Assembly (NCBI RefSeq): GCF_003952425.1
Contig: NZ_CP034449.1
Coordinates: 1,550,001 to 1,614,000, forward strand
DNA: 64,000 nucleotides
DNA from: Mesorhizobium sp. M2A.F.Ca.ET.046.03.2.1
GTDB taxonomy: Bacteria; Pseudomonadota; Alphaproteobacteria; Rhizobiales; Rhizobiaceae
Direction: 5' to 3'
Shown here: positions 7,477 to 31,069 of the stretch, one piece after another
How the letters are laid out: each line of letters starts with the position of its first letter
How positions within the stretch are numbered: position 1 is the first letter of the stretch
Translations under genes and position numbers: made by a program
Notes under the pieces: generated by a model
Seen by the model: the letters and a program-made list of their open reading frames with translations, nothing else
The model's database searches: none
What the model was told of the DNA's origin: nothing

Positions 7477-8187
7477 TCATGCGCTCACAAGCCTCATAAT
7501 GGTGTCGATATTAAATTCCAGACGCTCATTTAGAGCGTCTTTCTCCATGAGGTCGCGCTCGAAAATAATCGAGCCTGTGAACCTGTTGGTCAGATAGTAG
7601 TATCCGATCGCGGCGATCGTGATGTTGAGCTGCACTGGGTCGATACCGCCGCGGAAGTCGCCGCTGCTGACGCCCCGCTCAAGTATGCCCGACACCATGG
7701 CGACGAATTTGCGGCTGGCGGTCTTGATCAGCTCGGACTTCTTCACATGCTTGCCGCGGTGAAGGTTCTCGCTGTTGACCAGGGTGATGAACTCCGGATT
7801 CTTCAGATAATACTGCCATGTAAACCGCACGAGGCGTTCAAGGGCATCCCTCGGTTCCAAGTCGTCGAGATGAAGTTTCTGCTCGGCCGTGCGGATGTCC
7901 AGATAGGCATTTTCCACCACAGTCTGGAAGAGACCGTCCTTGCTGCCGAAATAGTGGTAAATCATACGCTTGTTGGCGTTTGCCTTGGCCGCGATAACAT
8001 CGACACGCGCGCCGCCGAGGCCGTTCTTGGCGAAATCGCTCTTCGCCGCTTCCAGAATACGAAGCTTGGTCGCTTCGGCATCCCGAAGCCGCTTCTTCTT
8101 GGCGACATTGCCTGATTTTCCGGACGTTGCGTCCACTTTGGCCGCTCCCTTGGTTCCAGTTCCAGCGTGTTGTCGACGATCGGTCAT
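7477..8187 (-). CDS. TetR/AcrR family transcriptional regulator
   Basis: A 236-residue regulator. After a 33-residue basic, disordered N-terminus it has the TetR helix-turn-helix: TKLRILEAAKSDFAKNGLGGARV, then IAAKANANKRMIYHYFGSKDGLF at about residues 65-87. The C-terminal ligand domain contains YLDIR and FTWQYYLKNPEFITLVNSEN, like the subgroup found beside catabolic genes. It is divergent from the ABC importer operon, with palindrome 8268-8283 between them. Matching palindromes occur in the other divergent promoters of the island, so it is probably the regulon's repressor, released by a pathway ligand or CoA ester. Ligand unknown. Confidence 0.92.
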   Translation of the reverse strand: MTDRRQHAGTGTKGAAKVDATSGKSGNVAKKKRLRDAEATKLRILEAAKSDFAKNGLGGARVDVIAAKANANKRMIYHYFGSKDGLFQTVVENAYLDIRTAEQKLHLDDLEPRDALERLVRFTWQYYLKNPEFITLVNSENLHRGKHVKKSELIKTASRKFVAMVSGILERGVSSGDFRGGIDPVQLNITIAAIGYYYLTNRFTGSIIFERDLMEKDALNERLEFNIDTIMRLVSA

Positions 8188-8267
8188 GCGCTGAAAGTCA
8201 TTTCAATTGTCCAAGAAGTCAACAGGCCGCGCACCGTGCCGCCGCTTGACTCTCACACATTCAGGAA

Positions 8268-8283
8268 GTAACTAGATGGTGCA
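8268..8283. promoter_or_regulatory. putative TetR operator 1
   Basis: GTAACTAGATGGTGCA: the left arm and centre match the operators at 18140, 24631 and 24745, while the right arm matches only TGGT. It lies between the TetR gene and the binding-protein gene, so it could govern both. Confidence 0.6.
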
Positions 8284-8378
8284 TTCAGCGACCAAGAGAG
8301 CGGTTTGGACGGCCTGGCTTCTCGGGGTTGCTCAATAGACGGCCCGCCCTTGCGGGCTGTCGCCAAATGGGAGGTAAC

Positions 8379-9491
8379 ATGTCGACTTTCATCAAGGATT
8401 TCATCGAGCGCGAGACCGTCAACCGACGCAATTTCCTGCTCGCCACGGCTGCCGGCATGGGGGCGATGGCCGTGCCATTCGCCTTCGGCGGCAGCGCTGC
8501 CCGAGCGGCGATCAGCGACCCGGCGATCGCCTGGTCGTACCGCGACCGCGCCTCGGCTTACTGGAACTCGATCGTGTCGGGCGGCGAGGCACTCGTGGAA
8601 TCCCTCGGCAAGACCAAGGATTCCCTCGTCTCGCTGATCAACGAAGGCTCCTCCGAAAAGTCGCTGGCCGACATCAAGGCGTTCCTGGCCAAGACCGGCG
8701 GCAAGTGCGCTATCGCCTGCGACGCCAATGACAGCCCGAACGCCCGTCCGGTGGTCGAGGCTGTGCGCGACGCCGGCGCCTACATTTCCACGATTTGGAA
8801 CAAGACCGACGACCTGCACCCGTGGGACATCGGCGACAATTACGTCTCGCACATGACCTGGTCGGACGAGAAGCCGGCCGAGCAGACGGCGCGGATCCTG
8901 TTCGACGCCATGGGCGGCAAGGGTGGCGTCGTGCATCTGGGTGGCATTGCCGCCAACAACCCGGCAATCGAGCGTCTGAACGGCTTGAAGAACGCCTTGA
9001 AGGACTTTCCCGATATCGAGCTTTTGGATGCTCAGCCCGCAGACTGGGACACGACCAAGGGCACGGAGCTGATGGCGTCTTTCCTGACGCGCTTCGGCGA
9101 CAAGATCACCGGCGTGCACTGCGCCAACGACAACATCGCCTATGGCGTGATCGAGGCGCTGCGCGCCGAGGGGATCGAGAATATGCCGATCGTCGCCTAT
9201 GACGGAAATCCGGAGGCCGTGAAGCTGGTGATGGAGGGCAAGCTCCTGGCGACCGTCTTCACCAATCCGCACTGGGGCGGCGGCATCACGGCGGCGCTCG
9301 CTTATTACGCCGCGACCGGCGCCTTCAAGCCTTCGGAAGAGCCGAAGGAGCACCGCGAATTCTACGGCCCGACGGTCCTGGTCACCAAGAAGGACGCGGC
9401 GGACTTCAAGGCCAAATATCTGGACGCCGTTCCTTCGTACAATTGGAAGGATTTCTGGGGACCGAGCAACGGCCAGATCAAGTACAAGTAA
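8379..9491 (+). CDS. sugar ABC transporter periplasmic substrate-binding protein
   Basis: A 370-residue binding protein of the ribose/galactose (peripla_BP_4) type. A twin-arginine export signal is visible, NRRNFLLATAAG followed by a hydrophobic run ending GSAARA near residue 45. The two-lobed fold is marked by LVSLINEGSSEKSL, KCAIACDANDSPNARPV, GVVHLGGIAANNPA, CANDNIAYGVIEALRAEGIEN and IVAYDGNPEAVKLV. ATG at 8379 follows GGGAGGTAAC and is preferred over an upstream start at 8328. It opens a seven-gene operon with two permeases and one ATPase, captures the substrate in the periplasm, and is probably TetR controlled via 8268. The substrate is unknown; a sugar, polyol or cyclitol is plausible. 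Confidence 0.9.
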   Translation: MSTFIKDFIERETVNRRNFLLATAAGMGAMAVPFAFGGSAARAAISDPAIAWSYRDRASAYWNSIVSGGEALVESLGKTKDSLVSLINEGSSEKSLADIKAFLAKTGGKCAIACDANDSPNARPVVEAVRDAGAYISTIWNKTDDLHPWDIGDNYVSHMTWSDEKPAEQTARILFDAMGGKGGVVHLGGIAANNPAIERLNGLKNALKDFPDIELLDAQPADWDTTKGTELMASFLTRFGDKITGVHCANDNIAYGVIEALRAEGIENMPIVAYDGNPEAVKLVMEGKLLATVFTNPHWGGGITAALAYYAATGAFKPSEEPKEHREFYGPTVLVTKKDAADFKAKYLDAVPSYNWKDFWGPSNGQIKYK

Positions 9492-9529: not shown

Positions 9530-9564
9530 CCCCCTATACGGCACGCTTGGACGGGAGGCCGGAG

Positions 9565-10530
9565 TTGCCACGCATCCTCACGCGGGAGAACGCGATCCGC
9601 TGGGCGCCCTTCATGGTGCTTCTCGCGCTCATAGTGCTATTCACGGCGATAAACCCCTCATTCCTGTCGCAACGCAACTTCGCGCGCATCGCGATCGCGG
9701 CGGCGCCCGCGCTCATGGTGGCGGTCGGGGTGACCTTCATCATCGTGATGGGTTCTATCGACCTTTCCATGGAGGGCGTCGTTTCCCTGACGGCCGTTCT
9801 TTTTTGCTTCCTGATGCTGGCGCTCGGCGGAACGCTCGCGTCGGGCGGCTGGATCGCAATCCCGGTCATTCTCGCCGTCGGGGCCGCGATCGGCCTGGTG
9901 AACGGTTTCATCCACGTCAAGCTGAAGATACCATCCTTCATGGCGAGCCTCGCGCTCGGATTCATCGGCACGGGCGCCGCGATCCTGCTGACCGGCGGCG
10001 ACATCGTCAAATTCAACGATCCGACGTTCCGCGCTCTGCTGACCTGGCGCATCCTCGGCTTTCCGCTGATGGTCTATGTCGCGGGGCTCTGCCTCGTCCT
10101 CGCCTGGTTCATCCAATCTCAGACCCGCCTTGGGCGTTACTTTTATGCGGTCGGCGGCGGCGAGGAACTCGCCCATGCCTCGGGCGTGCGGGTGCAGCAT
10201 GTGAGGATGGCCGGCTTCTCGCTTGCCGGCTTCTTTTACGCGATCGCGGCGATCCTGCAGGTGGCGAAGCTCGGCCAGGCCGAATCCGTCACCGGATCGA
10301 ACTTCATGTTCATGTCCATCACTTCGGTGGTGGTCGGCGGCGTGGCGCTCTGGGGTGGCATCGGCGGCGTTTGGAACACGCTCGTCGGCGTCCTGATCGT
10401 CGCCGTCATCAACAACGGCATGGTGGTCATCGGCCTGCCCGATTTCCTGCAGGCCGCCGTTCTCGGGCTGCTGGTCATCATAGCGGTCATCCTGTCGACG
10501 GACCGGCGCGCGGTCGCGTTCGTCAAGTGA
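9565..10530 (+). CDS. sugar ABC transporter permease (RbsC family), first permease
   Basis: An inner-membrane permease of about 321 residues, BPD_transp_2 / RbsC type, with eight to ten hydrophobic segments (PFMVLLALIVLFTAINP, APALMVAVGVTFIIVMGSI, VVGGVALWGGIGGVWNTLVG). The cytoplasmic coupling motif GGGEELAHASGVRV matches the family's G-N-x-x-A-A-x-x-S-G loop. Two TTG starts are possible, 9547 and 9565; 9565 is preferred because GGAGG precedes it. With the second permease at 12053 it probably forms a heterodimeric channel with the ATPase between them. Confidence 0.9.
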   Translation: MPRILTRENAIRWAPFMVLLALIVLFTAINPSFLSQRNFARIAIAAAPALMVAVGVTFIIVMGSIDLSMEGVVSLTAVLFCFLMLALGGTLASGGWIAIPVILAVGAAIGLVNGFIHVKLKIPSFMASLALGFIGTGAAILLTGGDIVKFNDPTFRALLTWRILGFPLMVYVAGLCLVLAWFIQSQTRLGRYFYAVGGGEELAHASGVRVQHVRMAGFSLAGFFYAIAAILQVAKLGQAESVTGSNFMFMSITSVVVGGVALWGGIGGVWNTLVGVLIVAVINNGMVVIGLPDFLQAAVLGLLVIIAVILSTDRRAVAFVK

Positions 10531-10537: not shown

Positions 10538-12043
10538 ATGTATGAATTGAAAGCCGTCGAAAAGAAGTTTCCGGGCGTCCATGCGCTGAAATCGGTCGAC
10601 TTTTCCATCAGCCGGGGGGAGATCGTCGGGCTGGTGGGCGAGAATGGCGCTGGCAAATCCACGCTCATGAAGGTGATCTACGGCGCCTACCAGCCCGACG
10701 GCGGCGAGATGCTCATCGATGGCAAGCCTGTCCGGTTCGGCGGCCCGCGCGACGCCATGGAGCGAGGCATCGGCATGGTGTTTCAGGAGCAATCGCTGAT
10801 CACCAACCTGTCCGTGATGGAAAACATCTTCCTGGGCTATGAAGACCAGTTCTCGCGCTTCGGCGTGGTCAACTGGAAGGCGATGGCCAAAGCCGCCGGG
10901 AAGCAGCTTGCAAAGGTCAAGCTCGATATCGATCCGCGCACCATCACCTCGAGCCTTTCCTTCGCGCAGCGCCAGCTTGTGGAACTGGCCAAGGTGCTGA
11001 CGCTGGAGGAGCGGGTGCAGGGTCATCTGGTCGTCCTGCTCGACGAGCCCACCTCGGTGCTGGCCGAGGAAGAGGTGAAGCTATTGTTCAAGCTCGTGCG
11101 GGAGTTGACGACGCGCGCTTCATTCATCTTCGTGTCCCACCGCATGGACGAGGTGATGGAGCTCTCGGACCGAATCTACGTGATGAAGGACGGCCAGGTG
11201 GTCGATGTCGTCTCGCGCGGCGCAGCGACACCGGAGGCGATCCAGCACAAGATGGTCGGCCGCCATGTCGATAAGGAATATTACCGTGAGCAGCGGCAAA
11301 AGCCCTACGACGCGACGAGGCCGCTGGTGGAGCTGTCGGGCGTGGACCTGCCGGGACGGGTTCACGATATCTCGCTGACGCTGCATGCCGGCGAGGTCCT
11401 GTGCCTGGTCGGCACCGAGGGCTCCGGCCGCGAAGCGATCCTTCGAACAATCTACGGCATGCGCACGCCTACCAAGGGCACGCTGAAGATCAAGGGCGAG
11501 ACCGTCTCCAGGCTGACCGCCCGCGCAGCGGTGGAGCGCGGCGTCGGCTATGTGCCGCGCGAGCGCAAGATCGAGGGCATCGTGGCCGGCATGAATGTCT
11601 ACGAGAACATGACGCTCTCGCAAATGCCGCACTACGCGCGGATGGGCTGGCTCGACGTGGCCGACGAGCGTGCCCTTGCCCGGAAATGGATCGGCAAGCT
11701 CGCCATCAAGGCAAGCTCCGAATATGCCGACTGCGGCAACCTTTCCGGCGGCAACCAGCAGAAGGTCGTGCTTGCCAAATGGCGGTCGGGCGGCTCCGAC
11801 ATCATGCTGCTCGATCATCCGACCCGAGGCCTGGACATCGGCGCCAAGGAGGATGTGTACGACATGATCAGGGAGATGTGCGACGACGGGGTCGGCGTTG
11901 TCCTGGTCGCCGACACGCTCGAAGAGGCGATCGGCCTCTCCCACACCATCGTCGTCATCAAGGACGGTGAGATCCAGAAGCGCTTCGACTGCGTGCCCGG
12001 TTCCAAGCCGACGCTCTACGACCTTCTGCACTACATGATCTGA
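10538..12043 (+). CDS. sugar ABC transporter ATP-binding protein (RbsA family)
   Basis: A 501-residue protein with two tandem ATPase domains, the RbsA/MglA layout. Domain 1 has Walker A GENGAGKST near residue 35, a degenerate signature LSFAQRQLVELAKVL and Walker B VVLLDEPTSVL. Domain 2 has a degenerate P-loop GTEGSGRE near residue 290, signature LSGGNQQKVVLAKW and Walker B IMLLDHPTRGLD, where the catalytic Glu is His. Degeneracy in one site is normal in this family, but the His at the domain 2 Walker B position is worth noting. It energises the importer, lying seven bases after permease 1 and nine before permease 2. Confidence 0.94.
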   Translation: MYELKAVEKKFPGVHALKSVDFSISRGEIVGLVGENGAGKSTLMKVIYGAYQPDGGEMLIDGKPVRFGGPRDAMERGIGMVFQEQSLITNLSVMENIFLGYEDQFSRFGVVNWKAMAKAAGKQLAKVKLDIDPRTITSSLSFAQRQLVELAKVLTLEERVQGHLVVLLDEPTSVLAEEEVKLLFKLVRELTTRASFIFVSHRMDEVMELSDRIYVMKDGQVVDVVSRGAATPEAIQHKMVGRHVDKEYYREQRQKPYDATRPLVELSGVDLPGRVHDISLTLHAGEVLCLVGTEGSGREAILRTIYGMRTPTKGTLKIKGETVSRLTARAAVERGVGYVPRERKIEGIVAGMNVYENMTLSQMPHYARMGWLDVADERALARKWIGKLAIKASSEYADCGNLSGGNQQKVVLAKWRSGGSDIMLLDHPTRGLDIGAKEDVYDMIREMCDDGVGVVLVADTLEEAIGLSHTIVVIKDGEIQKRFDCVPGSKPTLYDLLHYMI

Positions 12044-12052: not shown

Positions 12053-12994
12053 ATGGACATCCAACGCCTCAAGCCGCACTTCCCCTGGATCACCCTCCTG
12101 GTCCTGGTCACGATCGTCGGCATCGCCGATCCGAGCTTTCTCAAGCCCGCCAATCTGCTGAGCCTCGCAGGCGATATCGTGCCGCTGTTCATCATGGCGC
12201 TGGGACTGACCTTCGCGATCTACATCGGCGGCATCGACCTGTCGGCACAGTCGATGGCGAACATGATCACCGTCGTCGCCTCGGTCTATCTGGCGCCGTT
12301 GGGGATCTGGGTGGCGGCGCTCTGCATCCTTGCCGGGTTCACGCTGGGAACGCTCTCCGGCTACCTGACCACCCGCATGTACGTCCCATCCTTCATCTCC
12401 ACGCTGGCCGTCGGCGGGATCTGCTTCTCGGTGGCGCAATGGCTTTCCGGCAACCGCGCCCTGAACATGGACGCCACCCAGCGCAACGAGACGTTCGGCT
12501 GGATGATCGGTCGAACCGGTATCGTGCCGCACGAGCTCTTCATCGCCATCGGCCTGCTGGCGATCTGCTTGCTCTTAGAACGGCGCACGGTCCTCGGCCG
12601 GGCGCTGAAGGCAGTGGGCGCCGGCGAACTGGCTGCAGCCGCGTCCGGTCTCAACGTCGCCCGCTACAAAATCCTCGCCTTTGCGATATCCGGAGGGCTG
12701 GCCGCGGTGGCCGGGCTGCTGTTCTCCGTCAAGCTGTCGGGCGGCGCGCCGACGATCGCCAACGGCTTCCTGCTGCCGGCCATCGTGGCGGTGCTTGTCG
12801 GCGGAACACCGCTGACGGGCGGCGTCGGCGGTGTGCTCAACACCGCGATCGGCACGCTGATCGTGGCGGTCATCCGCGCCTCGATGCTCTATTTCGGCAT
12901 CGCGGCGACGCAGCAACAGATGGTTTTCGGCCTGGTGCTGATCGCGGCCATCGCCCTGACCATCGACCGCTCCAAGCTTCGCACGGTGAAGTGA
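12053..12994 (+). CDS. sugar ABC transporter permease (RbsC family), second permease
   Basis: A 313-residue inner-membrane permease of the same BPD_transp_2 family as the gene at 9565 but clearly diverged from it. Hydrophobic segments run through the protein (WITLLVLVTIVGIADPSF, IMALGLTFAIYIGGIDLSAQ, AIVAVLVGGTPLTGGVGGVLNTAIG). The coupling loop AVGAGELAAAASGLNVAR is present near residue 200. Two different permeases and one double ATPase indicate a heteromeric channel. The next gene begins eight bases downstream. Confidence 0.92.
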   Translation: MDIQRLKPHFPWITLLVLVTIVGIADPSFLKPANLLSLAGDIVPLFIMALGLTFAIYIGGIDLSAQSMANMITVVASVYLAPLGIWVAALCILAGFTLGTLSGYLTTRMYVPSFISTLAVGGICFSVAQWLSGNRALNMDATQRNETFGWMIGRTGIVPHELFIAIGLLAICLLLERRTVLGRALKAVGAGELAAAASGLNVARYKILAFAISGGLAAVAGLLFSVKLSGGAPTIANGFLLPAIVAVLVGGTPLTGGVGGVLNTAIGTLIVAVIRASMLYFGIAATQQQMVFGLVLIAAIALTIDRSKLRTVK

Positions 12995-13002: not shown

Positions 13003-14034
13003 ATGGCAACAATGCGCGCCGCCGTCCTGACCGCTCCGCACCGTTTCGATCTGCGCGAGGTCGCCGTTCCGGAGGTGGGACCTGACGACGCCTTGATCCG
13101 TGTCCAGCGGACCGGCATATGCGGCACGGACATCCATATGTTCAACGGTCACTATGCGGCCGACCGGCTGCCGTTGGTGCCGGGCCACGAGTTTGCCGGG
13201 ACGGTCGCAGCGACAGGCGAGCGTGTGAAGCATATCAAGCCGGGCACGACCTGCGTCGCGGATATCAATATCGGCTGCGGCCAGTGCTATTGGTGTCGCC
13301 GCAACGAGATCCTCAACTGCCCGTCGATGACGCAGGTGGGCATCGGGCGCGAAGGCGCCTTCGCCGAATATGTGTGCGTGCCGGCCAGGCTTGTCATACC
13401 GGCCCCGGACGATGTGCCGGTCGAGGTGCTTGCCCTGACGGAGCCGGTGTCCTGCGTGGTGCGCGCCGCGCGCAAGGCGCAGGCGAGTTTCGGCCAGTCC
13501 GTGGTGATCCTCGGAGCCGGACCAATCGGCAATCTGCATGTCCAGATGATGCGCCTGTGCGGCGCCGCGCCGATCATCATCGCCGACCTGTCGCAAGACC
13601 GTTGCCGCCTTGCCCTTGCAGCCGGGGCGGACGCAGCGGTCGCCGATCCCGCCCAGCTTAAGCAGGAGGTGCTGAAAAGGACCGGCGGGCGCGGCGCGGA
13701 TCTTGTGATCGAAAGCGTCGGTTCGCCGCGGCTTTACGCGTTCGCTTTCGAGCTCATCCGCAAGGGCGGCCATGTCGCTTTCTTCGGCCTCAGCGGACCC
13801 AACGACACGGTGCCGGTCGATATCCTTCGCACCATACTCGAGGAGAACAGTCTCAAGGGCTCGGTTGCCGGCATGGGCGAAGACATGCACGATGCGCTGA
13901 CGCTCTTGTCGCATGGCCGCTTCCGAACCGAGGCGTTCACACGCGCGACCTTTCCGCTCGACGACATCCAGCGCGCCTTCGAGACCCTGGCCGAGCGGCC
14001 CCGGGATCTCAAGACGCAAATCATATTGAACTAG
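13003..14034 (+). CDS. zinc-dependent medium-chain alcohol dehydrogenase
   Basis: A 343-residue MDR-family dehydrogenase of the threonine/sorbitol dehydrogenase type. Catalytic zinc ligands are in GICGTDIHM and GHEFAGTV; the structural zinc Cys cluster is CGQCYWCRRNEILNC. The NAD-binding Rossmann motif is LGAGPIGNLHVQ. It would oxidise a secondary alcohol of the imported substrate or an intermediate, with NAD. It lies within the importer operon, eight bases after permease 2 and 66 before the aldehyde dehydrogenase, which probably acts in the same pathway. Confidence 0.92.
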   Translation: MATMRAAVLTAPHRFDLREVAVPEVGPDDALIRVQRTGICGTDIHMFNGHYAADRLPLVPGHEFAGTVAATGERVKHIKPGTTCVADINIGCGQCYWCRRNEILNCPSMTQVGIGREGAFAEYVCVPARLVIPAPDDVPVEVLALTEPVSCVVRAARKAQASFGQSVVILGAGPIGNLHVQMMRLCGAAPIIIADLSQDRCRLALAAGADAAVADPAQLKQEVLKRTGGRGADLVIESVGSPRLYAFAFELIRKGGHVAFFGLSGPNDTVPVDILRTILEENSLKGSVAGMGEDMHDALTLLSHGRFRTEAFTRATFPLDDIQRAFETLAERPRDLKTQIILN

Positions 14035-18182: not shown

Positions 18183-19754
18183 GTGAGCAAGGTCAGGTCC
18201 GCAGCGGAGGCTGTCGCCGCGATAGGCGACGGAGCGGTGGTAGCGGTCAATTCGTCGTCCGGCCTGCTTTGCCCGGATGCCGTGCTTGAAGCCCTTGGCA
18301 AACGTTTCCTAGGCGAAGGGGCGCCGCGCAACATCACCACCATCCATCCGATTGCCGCCGGCGACATGTTCGGCACCAAGGGGGTCGATCACATCGCCCT
18401 GCCGGGCTTGATCAGCCGCATCATCGGCGGCTCATATCCCTCAGGACCGACCAATGCCGAGCCGCCGCTGATCTGGCAGCGTATCCTTGCCGAGGATGTG
18501 GCGGCATGGAACTTCCCCTCCGGGATCGTGTTCGACATGCTACGCGAGGGCGCGGCGCAGCGTCCGGGTGTGTTGACCAAGGTCGGCATGGAGACATTTG
18601 TCGATCCGATGCTCGAGGGCGGAGCCATGAACGCTTCGGCCCGGAAGGCGCCGATCGTGCGGCGCGTCGAATTCAACGGCGAGACCTGGCTTCACTTCCC
18701 TCCCCTCCGGCCGGATGTGGCGATCATCCGCGCGACTACCGCCGACGAGAAGGGAAACCTCACCTTCGAGCAGGAAGGCGCGACGCTTGGCGCCATGGAA
18801 ATGGCGCTTGCGGCGCGCAACTGCGGCGGCATCGTCATTGCCCAGGTCAAGCGCGTCGCGGCTCCGGGCACGCTACGGCCGCATGATGTGCATGTGCCCG
18901 GTATCCTGGTGGATTTCATCGTCGAGGCGCCGGACCAGCTGCAGACCACGGCGACCGCTTATGACCCGGCCATATCGGGAGAACTGTTCCGGCCGCTGCA
19001 CACATTCCGTACCCCGGAATACAATGTCTCCAAGGTCATCGCGCGTCGCGTCGCGCAGGAGCTTCGAGCGGGCTGGGCAGTCAATATCGGCTTCGGAATC
19101 TCGGCCAACGTGCCTCGCATCCTGATCGAAGAGGGCCTGCACGGCGCCGTCACCTGGGTGATCGAGCAAGGGCCGGTGGGCGGCGTGCCGTTGCTCGACT
19201 TCAAGTTCGGCTGCGCCTCCAACGCGGAAGCCTTCGTCGCCTCCCCGCACCTTTTCACCTACTTCCAGGCCGGAGGCTTCGACTGCTCCTTGCTGTCGTT
19301 CCTCGAAATCGGCTCCGACGGATCCGTCAACGTCTCGCGGCTTTCCTCGACGCCGCATCGCACCGCCGGCGCCGGCGGCTTCGTGGACATCACCTCGCGG
19401 GCGCGCAAGATCGTGTTCTCCGGCAACTTCAACGCCGGCGCGAAGATGCGGCTGGAGAACGGCAAGCTGGTCATCGACAAGGAAGGCAAGGTCGCAAAGA
19501 TCGTCCCGAAGGTGGACCAGGTCAGCTTCTCAGGCGCGCGCGCCGTCAGCCAGGGCCAGGACGTCACCTATGTGACGGAAAGATGCGTCATCCGCCTGAC
19601 CGCCGACGGCCTGGTCGTCACCGAAATAGCCCCCGGGCTCGACCTCGAGCGCGATGTCCTGCGGCAGGCGGCGGCTCCTCTCGTGGTCTCGCCGGCACTG
19701 AAGCTGATGGAGGCGGCGCTGTTCCTCGACCAGCCGATCGGGTTGCGGCTGTGA
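18183..19754 (+). CDS. family I CoA-transferase (YdiF / propionate CoA-transferase type)
   Basis: A 523-residue fused alpha-beta CoA-transferase. This family moves CoA from acetyl-CoA or succinyl-CoA to a carboxylic acid through a glutamyl-CoA intermediate. The N-terminal half starts VRSAAEAVAAIGDGAVVAV; the catalytic Glu is expected in VIEQGPVGGVPLLD, followed by FGCASNAEAFVASPHLFTYF and the FDCSLLSFLEIGSDGSVNVS segment. GTG at 18183 follows GGAGAGGTAGC and is preferred over an upstream in-frame start at 18159. It overlaps the enoyl-CoA hydratase start by four bases. Role inferred: activating the carboxylate made by the ALDH. Confidence 0.9.
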   Translation: MSKVRSAAEAVAAIGDGAVVAVNSSSGLLCPDAVLEALGKRFLGEGAPRNITTIHPIAAGDMFGTKGVDHIALPGLISRIIGGSYPSGPTNAEPPLIWQRILAEDVAAWNFPSGIVFDMLREGAAQRPGVLTKVGMETFVDPMLEGGAMNASARKAPIVRRVEFNGETWLHFPPLRPDVAIIRATTADEKGNLTFEQEGATLGAMEMALAARNCGGIVIAQVKRVAAPGTLRPHDVHVPGILVDFIVEAPDQLQTTATAYDPAISGELFRPLHTFRTPEYNVSKVIARRVAQELRAGWAVNIGFGISANVPRILIEEGLHGAVTWVIEQGPVGGVPLLDFKFGCASNAEAFVASPHLFTYFQAGGFDCSLLSFLEIGSDGSVNVSRLSSTPHRTAGAGGFVDITSRARKIVFSGNFNAGAKMRLENGKLVIDKEGKVAKIVPKVDQVSFSGARAVSQGQDVTYVTERCVIRLTADGLVVTEIAPGLDLERDVLRQAAAPLVVSPALKLMEAALFLDQPIGLRL

Positions 19755-20521
19755 GCGATCCCCGCCTCGACCTCAGCTTCGACGGAGCGGTCGCGCGAGT
19801 GACCATCCGCCGGCCTGAGAAGCTCAACGCCCTCGATGCCGCGATGGTCGATGCGCTCGTGCCGTTGTGCAGGGCGGTGGAGCGTTCCGCGGCGAAGGTG
19901 CTGATCCTGTCCGGCGAGGGCGAGAAGTCGTTCTCCGCGGGCGGCGACGTCGCCGCCTGGAGCGCGCTCGACCCGGCGGAGTTCGCGCGCCACTGGATCC
20001 GCGACGGCCATGCCGGCTTCGACGCTCTCGCCAGGCTTTCGCAACCGGTCATTGCCGTCCTCAACGGCCATTGCCTTGGCGGAGGCCTGGAGCTTGCGGC
20101 CTGCGCCGACTATCGGATCGCCGAGAGCCACGCCCGCATCGGTCTGCCTGAAACCGGCCTTGGGATCACACCGGGCTGGTCGGGCACCCAGCGCACGGCT
20201 CGCCGTTTCGGCACCCAGTTGATCCGCCGCATGTCGCTCTTCGGCGAGGTCTATTCCGCCGACGAGGCCTTGAGATTGTCGCTTGTCGACAAGGTCGTCG
20301 GCAAGGGTGACGGCCTCGCGGCGGCCGAACAACTTGCCGCTATCGTCGCAGGCCGGTCCGCTACCGCCACGGAGCTCGCCAAGATGCTCATCAACGCTGC
20401 CGAAGGCGAGGAACGGGAGCGTGTCCTGGATGCGTTTGCCGGACGTATCGCCGCCGGCAGCGACGACCTTCGGGCGGGCCTGGCTGCCTTCCGGGAAAAG
20501 GGCCTCCGGTCGAGAGATTGA
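19751..20521 (+). CDS. enoyl-CoA hydratase/isomerase family protein
   Basis: A 256-residue crotonase-fold protein. The oxyanion-hole segments are SFSAGGDVAAW near residue 60 and NGHCLGGGLELAACADYRIA near residue 105, followed by IGLPETGLGITPGWSGTQR, where the catalytic Glu is in LPETGLG. The other usual hydratase Glu position (GGG-E type) reads GGGLELA, so hydration is plausible, though isomerase or lyase activity is possible. GTG at 19751 overlaps the CoA-transferase stop (GTGA), so the pair is translationally coupled. It would add water to an enoyl-CoA made by the acyl-CoA dehydrogenase. Confidence 0.92.
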   Translation: MSDPRLDLSFDGAVARVTIRRPEKLNALDAAMVDALVPLCRAVERSAAKVLILSGEGEKSFSAGGDVAAWSALDPAEFARHWIRDGHAGFDALARLSQPVIAVLNGHCLGGGLELAACADYRIAESHARIGLPETGLGITPGWSGTQRTARRFGTQLIRRMSLFGEVYSADEALRLSLVDKVVGKGDGLAAAEQLAAIVAGRSATATELAKMLINAAEGEERERVLDAFAGRIAAGSDDLRAGLAAFREKGLRSRD

Positions 20522-20645: not shown

Positions 20646-21506
20646 TCAACAAACGGAGCGGAAGCGCTCCACGCAGGCGTCCAGCACGTCCCCGGGGTCA
20701 CGCTTCCACCAGTTCTGCGCCGAGAACACCTCCACCTCGCACGGCCCGTCGTAGCCGGCCGCTTCCACCGCCGCGCGGATCGCCTTCAGGTCGGCCACGC
20801 CGTCACCCATCATGCCGCGGTCGAGCAGCACGTCGCGTGTCTGCGCCAGCCAATCGCACAGGTGATAGCCAAAAATGCGTTTCGGCCCGGCCCGCAGCAA
20901 TTCGCCGGCGAGCGCGCGATCCCACCAGACGTGGTAGACGTCGACCGCGACGCCAACGTTGGACGCATCAATGGCAAGGCAAAGATCGACCGCGTCGCGC
21001 ATCGTCACCAGGCAGGAGCGGTCGCCACCATAAACCGGATGCAGCGGTTCGAGAGCCAGGCGAACGCTTCTGGCCGCCGCGTAGGCTGCAGCTTCGGCGA
21101 CACGGTCAGCGACCAGCTTGAGGCTTTCGCCGATGCCTTTCGTTCCCGGCTCGACGCCGCCGCAAACGATGGTCAGAACAGGGGCGCCGAGACCCGCGGC
21201 CATGTCGATCGCGGCGCGGAAATCGTCCATGATCGCCGCGCGGCCGGGCAGCCCCATGGGGCCGGTGAGGTAAGGCGCGCGGCACAGGCCGACGACACTC
21301 AGGCCGGCCGCGCGAACCCGCTCGCCGATCTCGACGGCGCGGTCGCCGATTTCGCGACGCCAGAAGACGATGCCGGGTATGCCGCGCTCAGCGCAGGCAT
21401 CAAGCACACGCTCGATAGGCCAGCCCGCGCCGTGCCCGTCCAGATTATGGCCGAGCGTCGCCGTATTGAGCGCCAGCGCGGAATGGTTCGCCGTGAAGTC
21501 GCGCAT
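20646..21506 (-). CDS. sugar phosphate isomerase/epimerase family protein (AP_endonuc_2 TIM barrel)
   Basis: A 286-residue xylose-isomerase-like TIM barrel. Metal-site residues typical of the family are visible: ALEPLHPVYGGDRS (Glu, His), VGVAVDVYHVWWD (Asp, His), YHLCDWL (His, Asp) and CEVEVFS (Glu). N-terminal ALNTATLGHNLDG and the segment RVLDACAERGIPGIVFWRREIG fit the hydroxypyruvate isomerase/IolE side of the family. It is last in a four-gene operon, eight bases after the DUF993 gene. It could isomerise or dehydrate a keto-sugar intermediate; no substrate is evident. Confidence 0.88.
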   Translation of the reverse strand: MRDFTANHSALALNTATLGHNLDGHGAGWPIERVLDACAERGIPGIVFWRREIGDRAVEIGERVRAAGLSVVGLCRAPYLTGPMGLPGRAAIMDDFRAAIDMAAGLGAPVLTIVCGGVEPGTKGIGESLKLVADRVAEAAAYAAARSVRLALEPLHPVYGGDRSCLVTMRDAVDLCLAIDASNVGVAVDVYHVWWDRALAGELLRAGPKRIFGYHLCDWLAQTRDVLLDRGMMGDGVADLKAIRAAVEAAGYDGPCEVEVFSAQNWWKRDPGDVLDACVERFRSVC

Positions 21507-21514: not shown

Positions 21515-22663
21515 TCAGAGCCCATAAAGGGCAAGCAGCTTGCGCATGCGTGCGGCCGCCAGCTCGGGATCCGCCAGGAGGCCGCAGCCGTCGGCCAGCT
21601 TGAACACTTCCACGAAATAGGGCAGCGGCCGCATCGACTGGGCGCCCCCGAGCATGACGAAATGATCCTGGAACCCGTTCAGCCAGGCGAGGAACACGAC
21701 CCCCGTCTTGTAGTATTGGGTGGGCGCTCGAAAGATCAGACGCGCGAGCGGCACGGTAGGATCCAGCGCGGCGTGGAACCCCTGGCTATCGCCCCGGCCG
21801 AGCCGATCGATGGCGTAGGCGGCGGCCGGCGCCAAGGGATCGAAGATACCAAGCAGAGCGTGCGAGAACCCCTGTTCGTCACCCGCGATCAGCTCCGGAT
21901 AATTGAAGTCGTCGCCGGTATACATCTTCACGCCGGCGGGCAGACGGCGGCGCATCGCGATCTCCTTCTCCTTGTCGAGGAGGGAAATCTTGATGCCGTC
22001 GACCCTAGCGGTGTTGTTTCCGATGATCGCCAAGACCGTCTCGAGCGCGTCCTCGAAGCGGGCGGCTCCCCAATAACCCTTGAGGGCCGGATCGAACATC
22101 TCTCCCAGCCAGTGCAGGATCACCGGCCTGTCGCAGCGCGCGAGCACATCGCCATAGATCGAAACATAATCCTCGGGCGAACGCGCCACGGCCGCCAATG
22201 CCCGGCTGGCCATGACGATCAATCTGCCGCCGACCTTCTGGATGGCCTCGAGCTGCTCGAAATAGGCTCGGCGAACATCGTCGAGCGTGCGTGCATCGGC
22301 CGGTCCGAGCTGATCGGTGCCGGCGCCGTTGAAGACGAGCGCGTCGGGCAGCTCGCTCCTGGTCCTGCGGATCAGCTCCAAGGCCGAAGGCCAATCGAGG
22401 CCCATGCCACGCTGCGCGGTGTCCATCGCCTCGGCGATGCCGAGGCCGAGGCCGTGAAGATGGCACCTGAATGCCATCGTGGCCTTCCAGTCGATGGCGG
22501 CGGGACCGCCGGGATCGTTGAAGCTGAAAGGATCCGCCACAACATGGGCCGCCGACAGCACGGTACGTGGCGCATCAGAGGGCAATCGCGCGGCCGGAAT
22601 CGTCTTGCCTTGAAGCCGGTAGTCGGAAAGTCTGCCCGTGTTATCCGGCAGTTGGATGATCAT
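21515..22663 (-). CDS. DUF993 family protein, dihydrodipicolinate-synthase-like TIM barrel
   Basis: A 382-residue protein resembling DUF993, a family annotated as dihydrodipicolinate-synthase-like. Visible stretches are SFNDPGGPAAIDWKATMAFR near residue 50, LPDALVFNGAGTDQLGP, RPVILHWLGEMFDPALKGYW, ARVDGIKISLLDKEKE with a central Lys candidate Schiff-base residue, and MYTGDDFNYPELIAGDEQGFSHALLG. Related class I aldolases use such a Lys for C-C cleavage, so retro-aldol cleavage of an oxidised intermediate is plausible; this is inference. It lies between the SDR and the TIM-barrel isomerase genes. Confidence 0.82.
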   Translation of the reverse strand: MIIQLPDNTGRLSDYRLQGKTIPAARLPSDAPRTVLSAAHVVADPFSFNDPGGPAAIDWKATMAFRCHLHGLGLGIAEAMDTAQRGMGLDWPSALELIRRTRSELPDALVFNGAGTDQLGPADARTLDDVRRAYFEQLEAIQKVGGRLIVMASRALAAVARSPEDYVSIYGDVLARCDRPVILHWLGEMFDPALKGYWGAARFEDALETVLAIIGNNTARVDGIKISLLDKEKEIAMRRRLPAGVKMYTGDDFNYPELIAGDEQGFSHALLGIFDPLAPAAAYAIDRLGRGDSQGFHAALDPTVPLARLIFRAPTQYYKTGVVFLAWLNGFQDHFVMLGGAQSMRPLPYFVEVFKLADGCGLLADPELAAARMRKLLALYGL

Positions 22664-22690: not shown

Positions 22691-23473
22691 TCAGAACCGC
22701 GGCACCAGCATGCCCGCGTCGACGGCAATGACATGGCCGGTCGTATAGGGCAGCTCGCCCGTGGCGAGCGTCGCCATGACGCGACCGACATCTTCCGGCT
22801 TGCCGAGGCGGCTTATCAATGTCAGCCCCTCCTCGTCGATGCGGCGCTGATAAGTCTCGCTGACCGCCTTGGTCATGGCCGTTTCGATCAGGCCAGGCCT
22901 GATGTCGTAGACAGCGATGTTCTCGCGACCAAGGCGGACGGCGAAGACCTGGCTGACCATCGCGGACCCGGCCTTGGACACGCAATATTCGGCGCGCGGC
23001 TCCGCCACCGCCGTGGCATTGGAGGAAGAGACGTTGATCAGGCTGTAGAAGCGGCCGTCATCGCGCTCGCGGGCAAGCAGCCGCCTAGCCCAACGCTGCG
23101 ACAGGAAGAACTGCGCCTTGGTGTTGATTGCCTGGCAGCGGTTGTAGCTCTCCTCCGTCACGTCGAGCGGGTCGCCGCGAGAAATGACCGACACGCCGGC
23201 ATTGTTGATCAGCGTCGACAGGGGACCGATGGCGGCCTCGGCGGCTTCGAGCATGCTTTCGTGGCCGCCGAGATCGGCAACGTCGCCCGCGACACGCGCG
23301 ACCGGGCCGCCGAGCGCAGCGACGGCGGCTTCGGCGGCTTTCAATTCCTCGTCATCGGACGGACCGTTGAGCGCCACGCCGAATCCGCGCCGGGCGAGCT
23401 CCAATGCCGTCGCAAGCCCGATGCCGCGGCTCGATCCCGTGACGAAGGCTGCATGACGCGATCCGGCACTCAC
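22691..23473 (-). CDS. short-chain dehydrogenase/reductase (3-ketoacyl reductase type)
   Basis: A 260-residue classical SDR. The cofactor motif is VTGSSRGIGLATALEL (TGxxxGIG) at the N-terminus, then NNAG in LINNAGVSVI, catalytic Ser in NVSSSNATAV, and YxxxK as YCVSKAGSAMVSQ; PGLIETAMT and GHVIAVDAGMLVPRF complete the fold. It probably oxidises a hydroxyacyl or sugar hydroxyl, or reduces a keto group. It overlaps the acyl-CoA dehydrogenase stop by four bases and is followed 27 bases on by the DUF993 gene, so all belong to one transcript. Confidence 0.92.
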   Translation of the reverse strand: MSAGSRHAAFVTGSSRGIGLATALELARRGFGVALNGPSDDEELKAAEAAVAALGGPVARVAGDVADLGGHESMLEAAEAAIGPLSTLINNAGVSVISRGDPLDVTEESYNRCQAINTKAQFFLSQRWARRLLARERDDGRFYSLINVSSSNATAVAEPRAEYCVSKAGSAMVSQVFAVRLGRENIAVYDIRPGLIETAMTKAVSETYQRRIDEEGLTLISRLGKPEDVGRVMATLATGELPYTTGHVIAVDAGMLVPRF

Positions 23474-24615
23474 GCCCGGGCTCCATGCTTGAGGAGCTCG
23501 CGGGCGATGATCATGCGCTGGATCTGGTTGGTGCCTTCATAGATCTGGGTGATCTTGGCATCCCGATAGAGGCGCTCGACCTCGAAGCCGCGTATGTAGC
23601 CGGAGCCGCCGAAGACCTGCACGGCATCGGCGGTGCGCGCCACGGCTATGTCTCCCGCGAAACATTTGGCGATCGAGCAGGCCTTGGTTGCATTCTCCCC
23701 CGCATCGATCTTCTCGGCGGCGCTGCGCACGAGCAGACGGGCCGCCTCGATGTCCTTCGCCATGTCGGCAAGCAGCCACTGCACGCCCTGGAAATCGGCA
23801 ATCGGCTTGCCGAACTGACGCCGCTGCTGGGCATAGTCGACCGCTGCCTCGAGCCCGGCCTGCGCTATGCCGACGGCCAGCGAGGCGATGCCGACACGCC
23901 CCTTGTCCAGCACGCTCATCATCATGTGGAAACCGCGACCTTCTTCGCCCAGCAGCGCTTCGGGACCCAGGACGACATCGTTGAAATTGAGCGCGCCGAC
24001 CTGGCTGGCCCGCTGACCCATCTTATGTTCCTTCGGACCGCGCTCTATTCCCTTGGCGTGCAGGTCGACGATGAAGATCGACATGCCGCGATGGCCCGCA
24101 TCCTTGTCGGTGCGCGCCAGCACGAAACCGACGTCGGCGACCGGCGCGTTGTGGATCCAGATCTTGCCGCCGTCCAGCCGCCATCCGTGCCCGTCGCGCG
24201 TGGCGGTGGTGCGTATCCCGGAAACATCGGTCCCGGCTTCAGGCTCGGTGATGCAGTAGGCAGCCTTCTTCTCGGCGCGCATGGCCGGACCCAGCCACTG
24301 CTGCCGCTGCGCCTCGCTGCCATGCTGGACAAGCAAGGTGCTGATCAGCTCGACGAGGCCGCATTGATCGGCGACGGACGCATAGCCGCGCGACAGCTCT
24401 TCCATCACCAGCGCATAGGTAAGCGTGTCGAAGCCGGGACCGCCCATGGCCTCCGGAACGCCGATACCGAAGAGACCGAGCTCGCCCATCTGCTCATATA
24501 TCTCGCCAGGAAAGCGCTCATCCCGATCAAGCGCCTCTGCAACTGGACGAATGACATCCTCGGCAAACTGGCGCGCCATCTCGCGCACCTGCTGCTGCGT
24601 TTCGCTCAGCGGCAC
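23470..24615 (-). CDS. acyl-CoA dehydrogenase
   Basis: A 381-residue FAD acyl-CoA dehydrogenase with the three-domain layout. The N-terminal helical domain starts LSETQQQVREMARQFAEDVI; the middle strands show CITEPEAGTDVSG and GWRLDGGKIWIHNAPVAD; the C-terminal domain has GVQWLLADMAKDIEAARLL, the QVFGGSGYIRGFEVERLYRDA motif and ITQIYEGTNQIQRMIIARELL, whose Glu (YEGT) is the catalytic base. It desaturates an acyl-CoA thioester. It begins the leftward operon acyl-CoA dehydrogenase, SDR, DUF993, isomerase, immediately downstream of operator 24631-24646. Confidence 0.94.
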   Translation of the reverse strand: MPLSETQQQVREMARQFAEDVIRPVAEALDRDERFPGEIYEQMGELGLFGIGVPEAMGGPGFDTLTYALVMEELSRGYASVADQCGLVELISTLLVQHGSEAQRQQWLGPAMRAEKKAAYCITEPEAGTDVSGIRTTATRDGHGWRLDGGKIWIHNAPVADVGFVLARTDKDAGHRGMSIFIVDLHAKGIERGPKEHKMGQRASQVGALNFNDVVLGPEALLGEEGRGFHMMMSVLDKGRVGIASLAVGIAQAGLEAAVDYAQQRRQFGKPIADFQGVQWLLADMAKDIEAARLLVRSAAEKIDAGENATKACSIAKCFAGDIAVARTADAVQVFGGSGYIRGFEVERLYRDAKITQIYEGTNQIQRMIIARELLKHGARA

Positions 24616-24630: not shown

Positions 24631-24646
24631 GTAACTATCTAGTTAC
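24631..24646. promoter_or_regulatory. putative TetR operator 3 (perfect palindrome)
   Basis: GTAACTATCTAGTTAC: 7-bp arms around TC, fully palindromic apart from the two central bases. It lies 15 bases upstream of the acyl-CoA dehydrogenase start. Confidence 0.82.
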
Positions 24647-24744
24647 TCCTACGCTGGAATCGTCGGCGGCGTCAAGCGGCGGACTTCGCATCGCCATGCG
24701 TTGCCGTTACAAGTGCTTGCGGCTTCGGTCGAACTTAACTAGAA

Positions 24745-24760
24745 ATAACCAGATGGTTAC
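24745..24760. promoter_or_regulatory. putative TetR operator 4
   Basis: ATAACCAGATGGTTAC: arms TAACCA / TGGTTA around GA. It has the same layout as the palindrome at 24631 with one symmetrical base change per arm. A further half-site, TTAACTAGA, sits just upstream at 24735-24743. It is 14 bases before the aldo/keto reductase start at 24775. Confidence 0.75.
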
Positions 24761-24774
24761 TAATGGAGGATATC

Positions 24775-25791
24775 ATGAAGCCATCTGACAAGCGCGTATT
24801 CGGCCGGTCCGGCCTCAACGTCACGGCCTTCGCGTTCGGAACCGCTCCCATCGGCAATTTCCTTCATCCCATAGACGAGCAGACCGCGGATGCCATGATT
24901 CAGACCGCATGGGACGCGGGCATACGCTTCTACGACACGGCGCCGATGTACGGCCACGGCCTCTCGGAACTGCGGGCCGGGCATTCGCTGCGCTGGAAGA
25001 AGCGCGACGAGTTCGTCCTCGCCAGCAAGGTGGGCCGGGTGCTGAAGCCCGCGAAGCGCTCCGAGATCGACTTCGCGCCGTGGTCAAACGCCGCGCCGAA
25101 CACCATGAATTTCGATTACTCCTACGACGGCACAATGCGGTCGTTCGAGGATTCGCTGCAGCGCCTGGCGCTTGAACACATCGACATGCTGTTCATCCAT
25201 GACATCGATCGGTTCACCCGTGGCGACGAGCAGCCGGAAGTGTTCCGGCAGGCGATGGATGGCTGCTGGCGGGCATTGGAGAAACTGCGCTCCGAAGGCG
25301 TCGTGAAGGCGATCGGCGTTGGGGTCAACGAATGGCAGGTTTGCCACGAGGCGCTGAAGCAGCGCGACTTCGACTGCTTCCTGCTGGCGGGCCGCTATAC
25401 GCTGCTCGAACAGGAAGCCCTCGACGAGTTCCTGCCGCTTTGCGTCGAGCGCGGCGCGGCGGTGCTGGTCGGCGGGGGCTTCAATTCCGGCATCCTGGCC
25501 ACGGGCGCCGTTCCCGGCGCCAAGTACAATTATTCACCGGCGCCAAAGCCCGTCATGGAGAAAGTGGCGAAGATCGAGGAGGTCTGCCGCGCGCATGGCG
25601 TGCCGCTGCCGGCCGCCGCCTTGCAGTTCGTGGTGGCGCATCCGGCCATCCCGTCCTTCTGCGCCGGCACTCGCACTGTCCAGCAACTCGAGCAGAACCT
25701 TGCCTGGTTCAGTTACCCGATCCCCGGCGAGTTCTGGCAAGACCTGAAGAAGAACGGGCTGTTGCGGGAAGACGCGCCGGTGCCGGCATGA
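24775..25791 (+). CDS. aldo/keto reductase (aldose 1-dehydrogenase / pyridoxal dehydrogenase type)
   Basis: A 338-residue AKR similar to the L-fucose or D-threo-aldose 1-dehydrogenase and pyridoxal 4-dehydrogenase group. The catalytic residues appear in GIRFYDTAPMYGHG (Asp, Tyr), VLASKVGRVL (Lys) and DMLFIHDIDRF (His). ALQFVVAHPAIPSFCAGTRTVQQLEQN provides the C-terminal cofactor loop. ATG at 24775 follows TGGAGGATATC; an ATG at 24763 would lie within that binding site region and is less likely. It probably oxidises an aldose to a lactone. It overlaps the MaoC gene by four bases and is divergent from the acyl-CoA dehydrogenase operon. Confidence 0.9.
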   Translation: MKPSDKRVFGRSGLNVTAFAFGTAPIGNFLHPIDEQTADAMIQTAWDAGIRFYDTAPMYGHGLSELRAGHSLRWKKRDEFVLASKVGRVLKPAKRSEIDFAPWSNAAPNTMNFDYSYDGTMRSFEDSLQRLALEHIDMLFIHDIDRFTRGDEQPEVFRQAMDGCWRALEKLRSEGVVKAIGVGVNEWQVCHEALKQRDFDCFLLAGRYTLLEQEALDEFLPLCVERGAAVLVGGGFNSGILATGAVPGAKYNYSPAPKPVMEKVAKIEEVCRAHGVPLPAAALQFVVAHPAIPSFCAGTRTVQQLEQNLAWFSYPIPGEFWQDLKKNGLLREDAPVPA

Positions 25792-26267
25792 GTGTCGACG
25801 TCCGAGGGAAATCGCTCACAGGCCTCGGGTTGAGCTACGAGGACGTGGAGATCGGCGACCATTTCGAAACGCCTTCCACAGAAGTGACCGCGGCCATCAT
25901 AGAAGCGCTCGCGGAAATGACCGGTGACCGGTTCGAAATCCACATGAGCGACGAGGCGGCACATCGGCACGGCTTCCCGGCGCGTGTAGCGCATGGTCTG
26001 CTTGTGCTGTCCCTTGTCGATGGTCTGAAGAACAATGCCGTCGCCCGGTTCCGAGCCGTGGCCTCGCTCGGCTGGAGCTGGAGGTTTTCAGCCCCGGTGC
26101 TCGCCGGCGACATCATCAAAGCCGAGGTGACGGTCGCGGAAAAGCGGGCCACTCGCAATCCGGCCCGCGCGATTGTTCGTCTGCGGTTCGTCGTTTGCAA
26201 TCAGTGGGGACGGACCGTACAGGAAGGCGAGAACGAGTTGATGATTTATCGACGTGACATGGCTTGA
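25788..26267 (+). CDS. MaoC-like hot-dog dehydratase
   Basis: A 159-residue hot-dog-fold protein of the MaoC/(R)-hydratase group. The dehydratase signature is recognisable: DRFEIHMSDEAAHRHGFPARVAHGLL, with the Asp/His pair of the family at about residues 44-60, followed by WSWRFSAPVLAGDII and VTVAEKRATRNPARAIV. It hydrates or dehydrates an enoyl-CoA, possibly with the other stereochemistry from the crotonase at 19751. It overlaps the aldo/keto reductase stop (ATGA). It is the last cargo gene before the right end of the island. Confidence 0.9.
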   Translation: MSVDVRGKSLTGLGLSYEDVEIGDHFETPSTEVTAAIIEALAEMTGDRFEIHMSDEAAHRHGFPARVAHGLLVLSLVDGLKNNAVARFRAVASLGWSWRFSAPVLAGDIIKAEVTVAEKRATRNPARAIVRLRFVVCNQWGRTVQEGENELMIYRRDMA

Positions 26268-31068: not shown

Positions 31069-31069
31069 G

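Follow-up and report, generated by a model that had tools for sequence, protein, structure and literature searches.

In the peg operon, which serves polyethylene glycol catabolism in sphingomonads, a GMC alcohol dehydrogenase is followed by an aldehyde dehydrogenase (ALDH) and then by activation of the acid with coenzyme A (CoA). The oxidative deoxyribose/deoxyribonate pathway leads from a sugar to an acid, a 3-keto acid and a carbon-carbon cleavage; CoA takes part in it, and its products are of the glycerate type. In the non-phosphorylative Entner-Doudoroff pathway, sugar oxidation is combined with an aldolase of the dihydrodipicolinate synthase (DHDPS) superfamily, conversion of glyceraldehyde to glycerate and a MOFRL glycerate 2-kinase. 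Here we describe a cluster of 17 intact genes of Mesorhizobium sp. M2A.F.Ca.ET.046.03.2.1, located at positions 7477-26267 of a stretch of 64,000 nucleotides (hereafter the window; 1,550,001-1,614,000 of the single 7.37 Mb contig). The cluster encodes a TetR-family regulator, a ribose-type (CUT2) ATP-binding cassette (ABC) importer, a zinc alcohol dehydrogenase (Zn-ADH), an ALDH, a GMC oxidoreductase, two aldo/keto reductases (AKR1 and AKR2), a CoA-transferase, a crotonase, an acyl-CoA dehydrogenase (ACAD), a short-chain dehydrogenase/reductase (SDR), a DUF993 protein, a TIM-barrel isomerase and a MaoC-type hydratase (Table 1). We propose, with a probability of about 0.45, that it is a horizontally mobile catabolic regulon by which a sugar or polyol would be oxidised to an acid, converted to a CoA thioester, desaturated, hydrated, oxidised again and cleaved by DUF993.

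The succession of GMC dehydrogenase, ALDH and CoA activation is common to the window and the peg operon, but the latter uses an acyl-CoA ligase instead of a CoA-transferase and is not known to include an importer of the ribose type, an ACAD, DUF993 or an isomerase. The proposed route resembles the deoxyribonate pathway, in which, however, cleavage is carried out with acetyl-CoA by a beta-keto acid cleavage enzyme (BKACE, DUF849), and which is not known to involve ACAD, crotonase, MaoC or DUF993. Compared with the non-phosphorylative Entner-Doudoroff pathway, the window cluster has a CoA-thioester module instead of a sugar-acid dehydratase; the MOFRL kinase is present in the loci of some relatives.

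A preliminary description of this stretch, made from its letters, had named the set of enzymes and importer, placed it in a single regulon and known of no characterised pathway with these genes. Every gene named is present with an intact frame. The single regulon is supported by a common palindromic operator, although the genes do not form one operon: about six units are defined by transcription direction, namely TetR (-), the solute-binding protein (SBP) to GMC (+), AKR1 (-), CoA-transferase-crotonase (+), ACAD-SDR-DUF993-isomerase (-) and AKR2-MaoC (+). A description of the gene set as a pathway was likewise not found in the open-access literature, subscription papers being mostly outside this scope. 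DUF993 and 7VPF are named in none of the open-access papers searched, and 4DNH was absent among the matches listed. Tags of the range SMc04130-SMc04136 of Sinorhizobium meliloti occur in two of these papers. In the passages covered by the search, SMc04132 is listed in one paper, in a table where PhaR and global gene expression are treated (PMC12542648), and the mention of SMc04134 in PMC11387232 is confined to predicted networks, in which it is a node; a term search within PMC4961836, PMC8844928, PMC5596199 and PMC5940162 returned nothing on the locus.

The operator and the conservation of the gene set

The divergent promoters of the cluster carry the consensus palindrome GTAACYAnnTRGTTAC. The 16-mer common to three divergent promoters scores 28, whereas 30 plain shuffles of these promoters gave at most 24, and no palindrome match was found in 100 shuffled windows. 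A strict, degenerate search form (RTAACYAnnTRGTTAY) occurs at three places in the 7.37 Mb genome, all within the cluster, and its reversed pattern, taken as control, at none. From 30 genomes with DUF993 loci, 39 strict sites were obtained versus 3 for the control, with at least one site in 21 genomes. Thirty-one of these sites lie inside loci of our collection. Among the eight others, three are beside pathway genes (L175, L176, L177), one adjoins a TetR homologue and a CUT1-like importer (L174), and the remaining four (L171, L172, L173, L178) lie next to or inside genes unrelated to the cluster. In L172 and L173, from two Gluconobacter genomes, the site lies upstream of a gene recognised by eye as a major facilitator superfamily (MFS) transporter, away from the cluster; this may be chance or a member of the regulon.

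We then compared 80 DUF993 loci, each a stretch of up to about 21 kb (L003 and L004 are not independent of L113 and L114, whose contigs have the same lengths, and the gene-family clusters c24 and c32 look like antisense artefacts of the simple gene caller). With at least 12 of 14 positions matching, 49 sites were identified in 28 loci, 47 of them no more than 350 bp ahead of a pathway gene, whereas such upstream windows make up 11.7% of the bases. For 200 permuted palindromes, the mean was 1.3 and the maximum 15; with at least 13 positions, 18 real sites stand against a permuted maximum of 1. At the level of at least 11 positions, the operator was found upstream of ACAD (26/31), CoA-transferase (21/27), AKR1 (13/17), AKR2 (12/14) and SBP (4/8), less often upstream of ALDH (3/16), GMC (3/26), TetR (7/47) and Gfo/Idh (6/37) genes, and never upstream of DUF993 (0/80), whose gene is interior to its row. 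Asymmetric variants like GTAACTAnnTAGTGCG occur in L010, L180 (S. meliloti) and L183 (Roseateles) at the place matching the imperfect TetR-SBP site of the window. Because the divergent units carry a common operator, one regulon is likely, and the 17-gene block is probably switched on together; its TetR protein would be the one that binds the palindrome.

The neighbourhood search proposed in the preliminary description shows that the set recurs and did not come together by chance. The genes from TetR to AKR2 are collinear in six further Mesorhizobium genomes (L113-L118), with MaoC matched in four of the six; ACAD-SDR-DUF993-isomerase-AKR2 are grouped in L119-L125; and eight or more of the 17 families are represented in 27 of the 80 loci. 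The ACAD-SDR-DUF993-isomerase row, in one direction, is kept in Alpha-, Beta- and Gammaproteobacteria. The closest named relatives of the window's DUF993 protein are from Mesorhizobium (98% and 95%). DUF993 was detected in 134 of 146 genomes of the genus, and a match of at least 77% to the window AKR2 in 14 (the window's included). The cluster is patchy in the genus, and most other DUF993-positive genomes probably hold the paralogue only. Among 385 genomes of the class, 7 have the window-type SDR (E up to 1e-60), again counting the window's. In a phylum-wide sample of 398 genomes, which includes the window's genome and six positive genomes of the genus, DUF993 was present in 36; it was found in none of 14 well-known control genomes.

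By tblastn, DUF993 was also found in 144 plasmid records, 65 of them from Sinorhizobium, and among 58 plasmid records with a match to the SBP-to-ALDH part, coverage reached 80% or more in 51. All 17 genes match on a Sagittula plasmid, and 16 on Paracoccus and Roseateles plasmids, MaoC being the missing one. On the symbiosis plasmid pSymA of the model symbiont S. meliloti 1021 (L185, 765,000-792,000; unannotated record), 16 of the 17 genes match, again without MaoC, together with three operator-like sites; the cluster spans about 765-789 kb, and genes for a VOC protein, a second zinc dehydrogenase, a glycerate kinase and electron transfer flavoprotein (ETF) alpha/beta stand beside it. On pSymA of strain ml47 the set is annotated, its isomerase matching over 0.73 of the length. 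For SMa139-SMa142, which we take to be the tags of the pSymA cluster (the 1021 record carries no annotation), no Sinorhizobium paper was among the matches listed from the open-access literature. According to diCenzo 2014 (PMC4207669), wild-type S. meliloti grows on 73 carbon sources and a pSymA-cured strain on 69. With 16 of the genes on pSymA of strain 1021 and a cured strain described, standard genetics can address the question.

Enzyme families and the DUF993 protein

Catalytic residues were checked in the window sequences and their tblastn matches (identity of 45% or more, coverage of 85% or more, no stop; some are near-duplicates). The following were conserved in all aligned homologues: the ACAD glutamate in YEGT (52/52), Glu114 of the crotonase (33/33; one of its two glutamates was scored), tyrosine and lysine of the SDR (58/58), the CC pair of the ALDH (31/31), the GMC histidine (41/41), the CoA-transferase glutamate in EQG (39/39), aspartate and histidine of MaoC (17/17) and Glu153 of the isomerase (58/58). 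The three ACAD domains and the CoA_trans domain are present. Among the NCBIfam matches listed for the cluster genes, only PRK12745, matched by the SDR, lies above its cut-off, and the best NCBIfam model for the ACAD, acryloyl-CoA reductase, remains far under its cut-off (376 of 640 bits). The predicted model of the isomerase (pLDDT confidence score 95) is closest, among the top chains listed, to the solved structures SMc04130 and 7vpf, then to IolI; the protein is probably a metal isomerase.

The importer consists of a Peripla_BP_4 SBP, two permeases (BPD_transp_2 by Pfam scan for permease 2, NCBIfam for permease 1) and a double ATPase. None of the NCBIfam models for named sugars (ribose, allose etc.) matched the SBP above cut-off, the best being allose with 88 of 335 bits. 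Its leader is of the twin-arginine type (by eye). Its closest solved chain is 2rjo (264 bits), whose name says no more than twin-arginine signal protein, and no ligand could be deduced from the comparison with solved structures; we take 2rjo to hold a sugar.

The predicted model of DUF993 is a TIM barrel of the DHDPS type (class I aldolase-like) when compared with the top chains returned by Foldseek. Lys225 is kept in 121 of 121 aligned homologues and pairs with the Schiff-base lysine of DHDPS in a profile alignment. DUF993 differs from the DHDPS/N-acetylneuraminate lyase superfamily in being about 90 residues longer and in forming a separate Pfam family, with 10-18% identity in the DHDPS-type rows listed. 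On account of its modelled fold, DUF993 is a candidate for the cleavage step. If the pathway reading is true, this would be the first function for DUF993 and for the solved but unassigned structures SMc04132 and SMc04130.

Proposed pathway, variant loci and alternatives

From the gene content, operator sequence, conservation, predicted fold and catalytic residues that we observed, we infer a substrate, an order and a set of reactions, that of DUF993 included. A TetR repressor (the sign of its action is assumed) would occupy the palindromes until an inducer formed from the substrate releases it. The ribose-type importer would take up this substrate, which may be a polyol, a small glycoside or a sugar resembling a hexose. 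Its oxidation by Zn-ADH, AKR2, GMC and ALDH would give a sugar acid of a deoxy or branched kind, from which the YdiF-type CoA-transferase would form the thioester. This would be desaturated by the ACAD, with electrons passing to ETF and ETF-ubiquinone oxidoreductase (ETF-QO), hydrated by the crotonase and/or MaoC (the latter missing from several relatives' clusters) and oxidised by the SDR to a beta-keto compound. DUF993 would cleave this by Schiff-base (retro-aldol) chemistry through its invariant lysine, the isomerase would recycle one fragment, and glycerate may be one end product. The preliminary description is thus borne out where it joined sugar-type uptake to CoA chemistry, a combination kept together across classes; its regulon is supported as well, and no described pathway was found in the open-access papers searched, whereas its branched or polyol-like substrate and linear order of steps are still conjectural.

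Variant loci bear on this proposal. A CoA module (at least two of CoA-transferase, crotonase, ACAD, SDR and MaoC) was identified in 35 of the 80 loci, and 37 contain a member of a single family of Gfo/Idh oxidoreductases, delimited by 45% identity or more and resembling IolG and levoglucosan dehydrogenase with scores below cut-off. The two were never found together; eight loci, several of them at contig ends, have neither. Since they do not co-occur, this distribution suggests two alternative feeds to one cleavage cassette, both making the ketone that DUF993 would need. The Gfo/Idh-DUF993-isomerase clusters of Bradyrhizobium and others, to which SMc04130-SMc04133 of S. meliloti probably belong, show identities to the window of about 50% for TetR, 59% for DUF993 and 42% for the isomerase and have, in the six loci counted above, a similar operator upstream of Gfo/Idh; Gfo/Idh with NMT1-, TctC- or CUT1-type uptake replaces the CoA module and the ribose-type importer. 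One genome (G897) combines a CoA-type cluster (L025) with two loci that each carry a strict site: a Gfo/Idh-DUF993-isomerase row at a different place (L175) and the TetR-CUT1 locus (L174). Beside Gfo/Idh-DUF993 in Bradyrhizobium, we also noticed a 465-residue protein without Pfam match (L041:571-1968 and relatives), weakly muconate cycloisomerase-like (E 0.08). Quinate or shikimate as substrate was considered and rejected: a gene with a shikimate-dehydrogenase domain follows the isomerase in L022 and, by eye, a similar one in L036 only.

Among the CoA-type loci, partner genes encode ETF beta (10/80), glycerate kinase (8/80), ETF-QO (5/80) and a Dabb protein (10/80), the ETF, ETF-QO and glycerate kinase partners also on plasmids; HbpS, a cupin-like protein, an OprB porin or a galactonate-type MFS transporter stand beside a few. 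The ETF, ETF-QO and glycerate kinase genes suggest an oxidative flux through the ACAD and a route to glycerate. In L060 (a 14.1-kb contig), genes of a tripartite ATP-independent periplasmic (TRAP) acid transporter at the contig end adjoin TetR-CoA-transferase-crotonase-ACAD-SDR-DUF993-isomerase, without ABC, ADH, ALDH or GMC match. They take the place where genes for the alcohol-to-acid conversion would be, a layout expected if the CoA steps act on the acid. TRAP genes also lie near ACAD-SDR-DUF993-isomerase in L022 (9.6-kb contig). L136, L138 and L141, three loci that come from a single further family of the class, combine CUT1-type transport, whose binding protein we label GtsA, with two GMC genes, SDR, DUF993, LacI (by eye) and glycerate kinase, and L136 has an AMP-ligase gene nearby. 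CUT1-type importers accompany the pathway in L024, L033 and L083 too. L083 (G000:C1 4,828,000-4,847,900) is the second DUF993 cluster of the window's genome, with DUF993 57% and CoA-transferase 70% identical to the window's; it holds LacI (by eye), a Gfo/Idh of another kind, CoA-transferase, crotonase, ALDH and a CUT1-type binding protein and importer, and shows no operator match at 11 or more of 14 positions.

Several points weigh against the proposed route. To our knowledge, there is no precedent for an ACAD acting on a polyhydroxy acyl-CoA. The profile scans found no thiolase among the cluster genes (these scans covered the cluster), so that cleavage depends on DUF993. The profiles link this protein to DHDPS only weakly (E 0.03, with thin alignments); its HWLG lies near YN.P of DHDPS, the proton-relay tyrosine being seemingly replaced by His/Trp in a weakly aligned region. 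The window's own cluster has no ETF, ETF-QO or glycerate kinase gene. L083, L146 and L149 join CoA-transferase and crotonase to distant Gfo/Idh genes, the exclusion thus concerning one Gfo/Idh family only, and all three are without ACAD or isomerase match. The L060 locus may extend past its contig end, and genes missing from short contigs such as those of L060 and L022 are weak evidence. No strict operator site occurs in 9 of the 30 DUF993-bearing genomes. At 11 or more of 14 positions, 89 real sites compare with a permuted mean of 18, and one permuted palindrome reached 155. With up to two mismatches, the plain palindrome has two places in the genome, both in the cluster, versus 12 for its reversed control; the argument is therefore the position of the sites, not their number. 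Finally, no published mutant phenotype was found in the open-access literature, and the proposal is built on sequences and models.

A more far-reaching form of the proposal, which we hold as doubtful, is that a polyhydroxylated sugar-derived acid is beta-oxidised as its CoA thioester like a fatty acid, that DUF993 is a new class I lyase family replacing thiolase, and that the same DUF993-isomerase cassette is fed by Gfo/Idh elsewhere, as one module with two upstream chemistries. If so, sugar catabolism would be joined to the logic of beta-oxidation.

The gene content could also be read in another order. DUF993 and the isomerase would act first on the oxidised sugar, in a non-phosphorylative way like a 2-keto-3-deoxygluconate (KDG) aldolase, and the CoA enzymes would process the released short acid (3-hydroxypropionate/acrylate type) to propionyl-CoA or another central thioester. 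The YdiF/FadX kind of the CoA-transferase, the 37 Gfo/Idh-DUF993 loci without CoA module and the glycerate kinase genes are in line with it, as is the best NCBIfam model of the ACAD, although this match is far under cut-off. However, ETF with ETF-QO in some clusters favours oxidation over acryloyl-CoA reduction, and ACAD and SDR stand ahead of DUF993 in one gene row; we regard this order as rather unlikely. Still less probable in our view is a substrate of the glycosylglycerol type, either a sugar ether or a small glycoside, with GMC and ALDH oxidising the aglycone alcohol to an acid and, after CoA activation, ACAD and hydratase giving an enol ether and then a hemiketal that frees the sugar without glycosidase. 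The several kinds of sugar importer (CUT2 in the window, CUT1 elsewhere), glycerate kinase in some loci and the GMC-ALDH-CoA sequence of polyethylene glycol catabolism would fit such a substrate, but a glycosidase would be simpler, and DUF993 and the isomerase are poorly explained. Two unrelated pathways under one regulator, one handling a sugar (importer, ADH, AKR, isomerase, DUF993) and the other fatty-acid-like (CoA-transferase, crotonase, ACAD, MaoC), would suit the arrangement in about six units on both strands, but are very improbable given ACAD and SDR in one row with DUF993 and isomerase, the operator common to divergent units and the 27 loci with at least eight families.

Possible marks of integration and positions of the features

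The cluster lies 2.0 kb from a tRNA-Phe gene and is bracketed by this gene with an integrase remnant on one side and an att-like repeat on the other (Table 1). The repeat, first spotted by eye, has a local alignment score of 32, which was reached by none of 300 shuffles of the 633-base stretch; its gapless pattern had at least one match in 5 of 100 shuffled windows. The three elements look like marks of a past integration. In a tRNA scan of the loci of 11 relatives, ten had no tRNA gene and one had tRNA-Gly.

Table 1. Features of the cluster and its surroundings (window positions)
Feature	Positions	Strand	Basis or remark
tRNA-Phe (gaa), likely integration site	5364..5439	+	ARAGORN
Integrase remnant, only Arm-DNA-bind_3 domain matched	5654..6220	+	Pfam PF13356, E 3e-24
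TetR-family regulator	7477..8187	-	Pfam TetR_N + TetR_C_29
Imperfect operator GTAACTAGATGGTGCA	8268..8283	.	between TetR and SBP
CUT2 (ribose-type) SBP	8379..9491	+	Pfam Peripla_BP_4; NCBIfam allose/ribose binding, below cut-offs
CUT2 permease 1	9547..10530	+	NCBIfam
CUT2 ATPase, two ABC domains	10538..12043	+	Pfam/NCBIfam
CUT2 permease 2	12053..12994	+	Pfam BPD_transp_2
Zn-ADH, Tdh/IolM-like below cut-offs	13012..14034	+	Pfam; NCBIfam
ALDH	14101..15597	+	Pfam Aldedh, 541 bits
GMC (choline-dehydrogenase-like) FAD oxidoreductase	15597..17201	+	NCBIfam; PDB relatives
AKR1, DkgB-like below cut-off	17248..18069	-	profile matches incl. NCBIfam
Operator ATAACTATCTAGTTAC, one base off plain palindrome GTAACTAnnTAGTTAC	18140..18155	.	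between AKR1 and CoA-transferase
Family I CoA-transferase, YdiF/FadX type, EQG motif	18183..19754	+	profile matches; residue alignment
Crotonase (enoyl-CoA hydratase, ECH)	19751..20521	+	Pfam ECH_1, 149 bits; NCBIfam
AP_endonuc_2 / xylose-isomerase-like TIM barrel (isomerase)	20646..21506	-	Pfam; model pLDDT 95
DUF993 protein, DHDPS-type predicted fold, invariant Lys225	21515..22663	-	
SDR, PRK12745-type	22691..23473	-	above NCBIfam cut-off
ACAD, short-chain type, YEGT catalytic Glu	23470..24615	-	profiles; alignment
Operator GTAACTATCTAGTTAC, plain palindrome GTAACTAnnTAGTTAC	24631..24646	.	upstream of ACAD-SDR-DUF993-isomerase
Operator ATAACCAGATGGTTAC	24745..24760	.	upstream of AKR2-MaoC
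AKR2, L-galactose-dehydrogenase-like	24763..25791	+	
MaoC-type hydratase	25788..26267	+	Pfam
Att-like imperfect direct repeat of tRNA-Phe 3' end, 22 nt	26622..26643	+	one substitution and one gap

Another Mesorhizobium locus with a ribose-type ABC importer (L126-L129) has a relative of AKR2 (62-64%) and no DUF993 match. Downstream of the cluster, at 27764-31552 of the window, are genes of a molybdopterin-type oxidoreductase (MoCoBD, FAD_binding_5, Fer2).

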